Source: Meiothermus sp. (GTDB taxonomy: Bacteria; Deinococcota; Deinococci; Deinococcales; Thermaceae). From it: a stretch of DNA of 64,000 nucleotides. Under the pieces are notes generated by a model, which saw only the letters and a program-made list of their open reading frames with translations, made no database searches and had not been told where the DNA came from. Shown here piece by piece: positions 14,894-17,758 of this stretch. Positions within the stretch are counted from its first letter, which is position 1. Each line of letters begins with the position of its first letter. The DNA is taken from NCBI RefSeq assembly GCF_026004075.1, contig NZ_BPIK01000001.1:159501-223500 (forward strand), given 5' to 3'. The translations under genes were made by a program, and so were the position numbers.

Positions 14894-15592
14894 ATGACGC
14901 CGCATATCTCCGCTCCACCGGGTGCTATTGCTGAAGCCATCCTGCTCCCCGGCGACCCTCTGCGGGCCAAGCACATTGCCGAGAACTTTCTGGAAAACCC
15001 GGTGCTGTACAACCAGGTTCGCAACATGTTTGGCTACACCGGCACCTACAAAGGCAAACGGGTAAGCGTGCAGGGCACCGGGATGGGGATCCCCTCGGCC
15101 AGCATCTATATTCACGAATTGGTTCAGTTTTATGGCTGCAAGACCCTGATTCGGGTAGGCACCGCTGGGGCCATTACCGAACGCCTGAAGCTGCGCGATC
15201 TGGTTATTGCCCAGGCCGCCTGCACCGACTCCTCTATCAACAACCTGCGCTTTGGCGGCCAGAACTATGCGCCCATCGCCACCTTCGACCTGATGCGCCG
15301 GGCCTACGAGCAGGCCCAGTCCAGGGGCATGCCGGTGCACGTGGGCAACGTGCTTTCCACCGACACCTTCTACCACGACCAGCCCGACCCCTATCAGCTA
15401 TGGGCCCAGTTTGGGGTGCTGGCGGTTGAGATGGAGGCTGCGGGACTCTACACGCTGGCGGCCAAGTTTGGGGTGCAGGCCTTGTGTATCGTTACCATCA
15501 GCGACCACCTGATTACCCGCGAGAAGACCACCCCCCAGGAGCGGCAGGAGACCTTCAATCAGATGGTCGAGGTCGCGCTCGAGACCATCTGA
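14894..15592 (+). CDS. deoD: Purine-nucleoside phosphorylase (DeoD type)
   Basis: Cleaves purine nucleosides with phosphate to base and (deoxy)ribose 1-phosphate. The 232-residue sequence shows the trimer/hexamer-type PNP signatures: [14 protein letters not shown] (phosphate site), [43 protein letters not shown], and [17 protein letters not shown], followed by the catalytic Asp region TISDH. It complements the nucleoside hydrolase and ribokinase at 7-9 kb in nucleoside salvage. Confidence 0.94.
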
Positions 15593-15615
15593 GTAGCGTC
15601 TGGCCTGCGGCTCTG

Positions 15616-15621
15616 TATAAT
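15616..15621 (+). promoter_or_regulatory. Consensus -10 TATAAT of the arg cluster
   Basis: A perfect TATAAT, with the T of the hexamer preceded by TG. It ends 8 bases before an ATG at 15630 that opens a 16-codon reading frame, and 46 bases before the argF start. No good -35 is visible, suggesting activator or extended -10 dependence. Confidence 0.6.
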
Positions 15622-15629
15622 CAAACCCT

Positions 15630-15680
15630 ATGACTGGGTTTTTATACATACAGAAGTGGAGGTGCTTGTGGCTGAGGTGA
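15630..15680 (+). CDS. Short upstream ORF overlapping the argF start
   Basis: Sixteen codons (MTGFLYIQKWRCLWLR) followed by TGA at 15678-15680. The ATG lies 8 bases after the TATAAT box, the same leaderless spacing as other genes here. The frame passes through the argF Shine-Dalgarno and start codon and stops just inside argF. It contains two Arg codons, both AGG, one of them the last codon. It could couple argF translation to leader translation. It may also be chance; there is no comparative evidence. Confidence 0.4.
   Translation: MTGFLYIQKWRCLWLR
15640..15652 (+). promoter_or_regulatory. A+T-rich segment, possible ArgR site
   Basis: TTTTTATACATAC is an unusually A+T-rich patch between the promoter and argF in a GC-rich context. 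ArgR operators are A+T-rich imperfect palindromes. The match to a known ARG box is weak, and the call rests mainly on position. Confidence 0.25.
15658..15664 (+). promoter_or_regulatory. Shine-Dalgarno GGAGGTG that decides the argF start
   Basis: GGAGGTG sits 3 bases before GTG 15668 and overlaps the alternative GTG at 15656. It therefore favours 15668 as the argF start. Confidence 0.65.
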
Positions 15681-16609
15681 TTGAGCCGCTTACCAGCCTT
15701 AAAGGTCGCGACTTCCTTTCCAACCTCGACCTGTCGCCTGCCGAGTACCGCGCGGTGCTGGATACCGCCCACGCCATGAAGCGGGGGGCTTACAGGGGGC
15801 TGCGGCCCCTCGAGGGCCAGACCCTGGCGATGATCTTCGAAAAGCCCTCCCTGCGCACCCGCACCACCTTCGAAGTAGCCATGAACCAGCTCGGCGGGCA
15901 CGCAGTTAACCTCACCAACGCCGAGATTGGCCTGGGCACCCGCGAGCCGGTGCGTGACATCGCCCTGAACCTCGAGCGCTGGGTGGAGGGCATTATGGCC
16001 CGGGTTTACCTGCACTCGACCCTCGAGGAGCTGGCCCGCTACTCTTCCAAGCCGGTCATCAACGGCCTTTCCGACCTGCTGCACCCGGTGCAACTGCTGG
16101 CCGACTACCAGACCATCGAGGAGACCTTCCCCGATACCAGGGGCATCAAGGTGGCCTATATTGGCGATGGCAACAACATGGCCAACGCCCATATCCAGTG
16201 TGCGGTGCTCTCCGGGGTCAAGCTCACCATCGCCACCCCGCGCGGCTACGAGCCCAACGCCATCATCTACATGGAAGCCCTTAAGCTGGGGGCCGATATC
16301 ACCCTGACCCACGACCCCCTCGAGGCCGCTAAAGGGGCCCAGGTGCTCTATACCGACGTCTGGGTCTCGATGGGCCAGGAGGCCGAGGCCAGCCAGCGGC
16401 GCAAAATCAAAGACTTCACCGGTTTTCAGGTAACCCCGGCCATGCTGGACTTGATTGACCCCGACGGCATTTTTTTACACTGCCTGCCGGCCCACTACGG
16501 CGAGGAGGTGGTCGAGGAGGCCACCCTGCACAAAAAGTCCAGGGTCTTCGACCAGGCCGAGAACCGGCTGCACGCGCAAAAAGCCCTTCTCTACCATTTG
16601 TTAAGCTAG
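15668..16609 (+). CDS. argF: Ornithine carbamoyltransferase
   Basis: Converts ornithine and carbamoyl phosphate to citrulline in arginine synthesis. The 313-residue sequence carries the carbamoyl-phosphate motif FEKPSLRTRTTFE (S-x-R-T-R at residues ~61-65), RVYLHSTLEELARYS, the ornithine-side GDGNNMANA, DVWVSMGQE, and the catalytic HCLPAH near residue 274. GTG 15668 has a good Shine-Dalgarno; GTG 15656 would add four residues (MEVL). It is first in a cluster with a 60-residue ORF and argC. Confidence 0.94.
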   Translation: MAEVIEPLTSLKGRDFLSNLDLSPAEYRAVLDTAHAMKRGAYRGLRPLEGQTLAMIFEKPSLRTRTTFEVAMNQLGGHAVNLTNAEIGLGTREPVRDIALNLERWVEGIMARVYLHSTLEELARYSSKPVINGLSDLLHPVQLLADYQTIEETFPDTRGIKVAYIGDGNNMANAHIQCAVLSGVKLTIATPRGYEPNAIIYMEALKLGADITLTHDPLEAAKGAQVLYTDVWVSMGQEAEASQRRKIKDFTGFQVTPAMLDLIDPDGIFLHCLPAHYGEEVVEEATLHKKSRVFDQAENRLHAQKALLYHLLS

Positions 16610-16613
16610 GGGT

Positions 16614-16796
16614 ATGGGGCAGAGCGAGCACATACGCAAGCAGGTGGGCCGGCCACAGGTAAAGTCGCCTCTGGCCCAGGTGTTTCTTCTTCGACAGATG
16701 CTCTTAGAGCTGGGCCTGGAACCAAGGCATGCGCACACACACGTTCGAAAGTCTGTTGGCCGCCCTGGGACAAGACGGGGTTGGGTGGAGCCATGA
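16614..16796 (+). CDS. Small basic protein between argF and argC (hypothetical)
   Basis: Sixty codons beginning [15 protein letters not shown]. The ATG is 4 bases after the argF stop, and the TGA overlaps the argC ATG as ATGA. This tight packing is the main reason to believe it is translated. The product is basic and contains two similar segments, IRKQVGRP and VRKSVGRP, ~37 residues apart. No domain is recognised. It could be a coupling ORF, a small regulator, or merely the open leader of argC. Confidence 0.5.
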
Positions 16797-17758
16797 GTAA
16801 GCCCAAGGTGTTCATTGACGGCGAGGCGGGCACCACCGGCCTGCAAATCCGGGCCCGCTTGCAGCACAGAAACGATATCGAGATCATTTCGATTGACCCG
16901 GCTAAGCGCAAGGATGAGCTCGAGCGCAAGCGCCTGCTGAACATGGCAGACGTAGCCATCCTCTGCCTGCACGACGACCTGGCCAAAGGGGCGGTGGCGA
17001 TGCTGGAGAACCCCGAGACCCGCATCCTGGACGCCAGCTCGGCCCACCGGGTGGCCGAGGGCTGGGTGTACGGCTTCCCGGAGCTCACCCCGGCCCAGCC
17101 CGAAGCGATTCGCCGGGCGCGCCTGGTTTCCAACCCCGGCTGCTACCCCACCGGGGTGATCGCCCTCCTGCGGCCCCTAATAGAGGCCGGGCTTTTGCCG
17201 GCGGACTTTGCGGCCTCGGTTAACGCCATCTCGGGCTACTCGGGTGGGGGGCGGCAGCTCATAGACGCCATGGAAGGCCGGGGGGAGCACCGCCTGGCCG
17301 GGGACTACCGGGCCTATGGCCTCGAGCTTACCCACAAGCACATCCCCGAGATGACCGTCTACTCGGGCCTGCGGCACCCCCCCATCTTCACCCCGGCGGT
17401 GGGGCGCTTCCGCCAGGGGATGCTGGACTTCATCCCGGTACACCTGTGGGCCCTGCCGCAAAAGGTTACCGCTGCCGAACTGCACGAAGCCCTCGCGGAG
17501 CGCTACCAGGGGCAGCGCTTCGTGCGGGTAATGCCCCTGGAGACCTACGGCCAGCACCACCCGGTGCTCGACCCCCAGGCCCTGAACGGCACCAACCTGC
17601 TCGAGCTCTTCGTCTACGAAAACCCCGCGCGCGAGCAGGCCCTGTTGGTAGCGCGTTTCGACAACCTGGGCAAGGGGGCTTCGGGCGCGGCAGTGCAGAA
17701 CCTCGACATCATGCTGGGCCTGGAAGGGCCTTACACCTACGAGTACTTTGGCGACTGA
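16793..17758 (+). CDS. argC: N-acetyl-gamma-glutamyl-phosphate reductase
   Basis: NADPH-dependent reductase of the arginine pathway. The 321-residue protein is the short (type 2) form: dinucleotide start [22 protein letters not shown], the catalytic Cys in [10 protein letters not shown] (C117), [13 protein letters not shown], and the catalytic His region [13 protein letters not shown] 16793 overlaps the stop of the small ORF upstream. A GGTGGAG sequence lies immediately before it. It runs in the same direction as argF, most likely in one transcript. Confidence 0.93.

Follow-up and report, generated by a model that had tools for sequence, protein, structure and literature searches.

A candidate tandem ARG-box operator for ArgR at the argF promoter of Meiothermus and related Thermaceae

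Comparison of the region upstream of argF across 22 genomes revealed that what is conserved there is DNA, i.e., a TATAATC core with a dyad just downstream of it. Judging from the sequences, we consider it likely that this element is an operator for ArgR at the argF promoter, composed of a pair of 18-bp dyads that resemble ARG boxes and are separated by 3 bp (15612-15629 and 15633-15650 of the window, by which we mean the whole 64,000-nt stretch of DNA analyzed here). The argF site probably belongs to a known class of conserved regulatory sites and represents an ordinary type of bacterial control. The compared set included 18 genomes of the window's genus and four that represent two further genera in the family. 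The main set consists of 21 of these genomes, and the 22nd (G020) was entered as locus L190 in place of a fragment, L022.

In the genome that carries the window (the host), argF (15668..16609, + strand; ornithine carbamoyltransferase, TIGR00658, 348 bits against a cut-off of 281) starts with GTG at 15668 and is preceded by the Shine-Dalgarno sequence GGAGGTG (15658..15664, +); GGAGG is found at this place in 20 of 21 genomes and in L190, with GAGGAG in L011. The -10 box of the argF promoter, TATAAT (15616..15621, +), is the sole exact TATAAT on either strand of the entire window, and TATAATC is present in all 22 genomes. A sigma-70 promoter scan of 15200-16000 returned no site, and no -35 element was detected. 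The downstream argC gene (16784..17758, +; N-acetyl-gamma-glutamyl-phosphate reductase, TIGR01851, 451 bits) probably belongs, as we infer, to one transcript with argF. Behind argF, the host has a 60-codon frame (16614-16796, +), in which the motif RK[QS]VGRP occurs twice and for which a Pfam search gave no match. Frames of this kind (with RKxVG near the start) follow argF in eight of the 21 loci (L001, L002, L003, L005, L006, L009, L010, L015), frames of 180-181 codons, presumably resembling Uma2-type proteins, follow it in four (L012, L013, L017, L021), and in seven others argC comes immediately.

The upstream box, TCTGTATAATCAAACCCT (15612..15629, unstranded), overlaps the -10 box and matches the Streptomyces and E. 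coli ARG-box consensuses at 11 and 13 of 18 positions, respectively. The downstream box, ACTGGGTTTTTATACATA (15633..15650, unstranded; 12/18 and 14/18), is the A+T-rich patch that the initial annotation had named as a possible binding site for ArgR, and this suggestion gains support, since the patch appears to form the downstream member of a pair of ARG-box-like sites with a spacing of 21 bp, and its dyad recurs in relatives across the group. The 3-bp spacer between the boxes (15630..15632, +) reads ATG in the host (as in six of the 22 genomes overall) and is 2 bp long in four (L011, L013, L018, L021). The consensus strings, as they appear in PMC5291005, are TNTGAATWWWWATTCANW for E. coli, CATGAATAAAAATKCAAK for B. 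subtilis and AWTGCATRWWYATGCAWT for Streptomyces; the B. subtilis string fits poorly (9/18 for box 1 and 7/18 for box 2). According to PMC6640053, the canonical E. coli ArgR layout is likewise a tandem of two 18-bp semi-palindromic boxes with 3 bp between them, positioned over the promoter. Directly downstream of the -10 box, the dyad reads TGGGTTTTTATACA in the host and TGCGTTTTTATGCG, TGCTTGTTTATGCA or TGCGTAGTTATGCG in other genomes; its motif is inverted in L014 and L017 (CGCACACTTATGCG on the opposite strand), and the L010 dyad is a poor fit.

The tandem arrangement is distinctive within the window as well as across genomes. Among 63,962 window starts, 15612 alone is the best 21-bp tandem with the Streptomyces consensus (sum of 23, next 22), and it is also the single best with the E. 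coli consensus (sum of 27, next 24). When the Streptomyces consensus was scored over the 22 genomes at 165 offsets from the -10 box, the best means were observed at -4 (11.27) and +17 (10.32), followed by -8 (10.05), which places the two sites 21 bp apart. A comparison of all centre distances from 12 to 39 bp (28 distances, 22 genomes) identified 21 bp as the best one with both the Streptomyces and E. coli consensuses, a relation already noticed in an earlier matrix scan before this test; the consensus strings were published ones, applied without tuning.

The match has its limits at the level of individual genomes. In tests against 100 shuffles per genome, 13 of 22 genomes had a tandem score that five or fewer shuffles reached with the Streptomyces consensus (two shuffles in the host), and 14 of 22 had such a score with the E. 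coli consensus (no shuffle in the host). Three loci fail both tests, with 44 and 9 (L004), 10 and 10 (L007) and 24 and 73 (L010) shuffles reaching the score for the Streptomyces and E. coli consensuses, respectively. For a matrix derived from Thermus argF and argG boxes, the dyad was the best match in 16 of 21 genomes; it was not top-ranked in the host, L002, L003, L005 and L006, and the match in L010 was no better than in shuffles (p 0.735). A pattern built on the argF boxes themselves matched argF alone and was dropped as evidence, as its reversed control also yielded one match. For box 1, about five of the consensus matches are supplied by the -10 box itself: the window has 41 -10-like sites, counting that of argF, of which four reach 11 matches with the Streptomyces consensus and one reaches 13 with the E. 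coli consensus.

This overlap is in line with another reading, in which box 1 is conserved only as a promoter and box 2 alone is the operator, or in which the dyads bind some regulator other than ArgR. The latter version draws further on carA, which carries a related site in part of the group (see below) and serves pyrimidine synthesis in addition to arginine synthesis. We regard this reading as unlikely, given that 21 bp is the best of the 28 distances, that the arginine genes argF and argG carry related boxes and that argR is present in the family. Indeed, all 50 family genomes examined have argR, which scores above the curated cut-off in 49 of them, the host included (G000 C1:1790179-1790619, 159 bits). 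At argG, 43 of 46 loci have a box-like core upstream of the gene (the exceptions are L166, L170 and L171); this core contains a -10-like TATACT and, therefore, part of its conservation may reflect the promoter. An ARG-box-like site is found before carA in 12 of 22 genomes, and the host version, ATTGCATAGATTTGCAAA, matches the Streptomyces consensus at 15 of 18 positions. A second carA box at offset 21 does not stand out clearly, this offset coming no higher than fourth to fifth. Across the other two genera, 17 of 27 loci carry an exact copy of the Thermus-type argF box. The string TGCATANNTTTGCA, which derives from the argF box of Thermus, occurs once without mismatch in the host genome (3.25 Mb), approximately 41 bp upstream of the carA ATG, and seven times with one mismatch (the latter examined for open frames only). 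In the host, the sites that precede argJ, argB and argC are weak, and argR has one of moderate strength before it. In the host (L161, G000:C1:2333000-2346500), argG, carA and argJ form one block on one strand, interspersed with frames that we take to be argH-like (one) and acetyltransferase-like (two), and carA has its own ARG-box-like promoter site.

The proposed operator was also weighed against a hairpin formed by the 5' leader RNA of argF, acting as a stability element or a translational switch, as the explanation of the conserved dyad. In the 22 genomes, the dyad is part of the predicted transcript, and pairing is feasible for several of its versions (e.g., in L016 and L019). Nevertheless, folding of the leader RNA, evaluated for the host only, is no better than that of shuffles (z 0.61 and -0.07), and an Rfam search of the window gave no match. 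Moreover, like sites are located upstream of the -10 box, outside the expected transcript, in Thermus argF and in carA, vs. downstream of it in argF of the window's group; with the box position varying relative to the -10 box, recognition at the DNA level explains the entire set better than an RNA element. The inverted motif of L014 and L017 also suits a DNA site better. Altogether, we consider a hairpin highly improbable as the source of the conservation.

The initial annotation had focused on a possible leader peptide, and the layout on which it relied can be read directly in the sequence. TATAAT (15616-15621) is followed after 8 bases by an ATG (15630-15632), which opens the frame MTGFLYIQKWRCLWLR of 16 codons plus a stop (15630..15680, +; TGA at 15678-15680); both the argF GGAGGTG (15658-15664) and GTG (15668) are within this frame, which stops inside argF, and two AGG codons are present at 15660-15662 and 15675-15677, the second directly before the TGA. 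In the proposed leaderless, arginine-sensing scheme, ribosomes would start at the 5'-end ATG and cross the Shine-Dalgarno sequence and start of argF, and their flow or stalling at AGG would tune argF translation. The existence of the frame and its overlap with the argF start agree with this scheme, as does the sharing of the ATG by four close relatives with similar peptides (L001, L002, L003, L005) and by two more genomes with a different one (L004, L008). An ATG close behind the -10 box is, moreover, a common leaderless layout in this phylum, with a gap of 6-7 bp in leaderless genes of Deinococcus radiodurans, as outlined in PMC12340547. The gap of 8 nt observed here, vs. the approximately 6-7 bp expected of a leaderless gene, is near enough for translation of the small frame to be possible; such leaderless translation is possible in the phylum, and nothing that we found points to its use.

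Neither the leader peptide nor its arginine-codon coupling was upheld by the comparison with relatives, where the small frame lacks conservation, an outcome that the initial annotation had itself listed as refuting: the ATG is in place in just six of the 22 genomes and opens two different peptides, while TTG codons are found at a spacing of 7-9 behind the -10 box in L006, L007 and L011 (among 21 genomes). In the frames of L001, L002 and L005 (that of L003 does not differ from L002), 3 of 4, 4 of 5 and 4 of 6 codon differences alter the residue; although the sample is small, the frame of the main group does not look like a constrained peptide. The first AGG is the argF Shine-Dalgarno sequence itself, and the second falls within the argF codons GCT GAG GTG; neither of them, therefore, provides independent evidence of arginine sensing. 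No run of Arg codons under selection was seen in the small frame, which holds only these two, both otherwise explained. The absence of host RNA structure beyond shuffles, described above, and of any terminator-like site in 15200-16000 also speaks against a leader-peptide mechanism, which we judge to be very unlikely. The small frame is very probably incidental, and its peptide probably has no function: the frame appears to owe its existence to the spacer, whose three bases happen to spell ATG in the host. Separately, in six of 21 loci (L007, L009, L013, L018, L019, L020), a frame that leads into argF itself opens with a start-like codon (ATG in L019) located 11-14 nt downstream of the -10 box, making a longer, near-leaderless argF product conceivable in those six.

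A combination of both ideas is conceivable in part of the group, where the 3-bp spacer of the tandem might have acquired a leaderless start codon. A single 39-bp stretch would then serve as an operator while also opening a competing frame that extends over the argF ribosome site. We mention this only as a very long shot; if true, a leaderless start in the spacer would add a second, translational control layer acting on transcripts that escape ArgR.

With respect to known systems, the putative argF operator resembles the tandem E. coli operators in its geometry and differs from those of E. coli arginine biosynthetic operons in its placement. The latter, as PMC6640053 describes them, have boxes upstream of the start, overlapping the -10 and/or -35 elements, whereas the host argF pair extends from the -10 box into the transcript. 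TGCAT-type half-sites are shared with the Streptomyces ARG boxes, which are matched by the host carA box at 15/18, in contrast to the host argF boxes matching at just 11 and 12 of 18 positions. The ATG located 8 nt behind TATAAT is reminiscent of Deinococcus-Thermus leaderless genes; in contrast to such genes, the small frame lacks conservation, and argF, the actual gene here, is preceded by a leader as well as by a Shine-Dalgarno sequence. In the related genus, the arginine cluster of Thermus thermophilus has, as here, argF with arginine genes behind it. That cluster is said, by the title of Sanchez et al. 2000, to be without a Shine-Dalgarno sequence, unlike the host argF, which has one. A literature search, in which most subscription papers were outside the searchable set, found no account of this argF operator.

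In the proposed mechanism, the box pair would span the -10 box, the expected transcript start (at about 15628-15630) and approximately the first 20 transcribed bases. An arginine-bound ArgR hexamer occupying both boxes would be expected to exclude RNA polymerase, switching off argF and probably argC as well. Upon arginine scarcity, ArgR would leave the site, and translation of argF would begin at its GTG, with the gene's own Shine-Dalgarno sequence in use.

Overall, this analysis provides a specific candidate control site for argF in this group of thermophiles, as well as a likely example of an ARG-box pair that reaches from the -10 box into the transcript. It also suggests caution in that, in this phylum, an ATG just behind a -10 box need not mark a gene.
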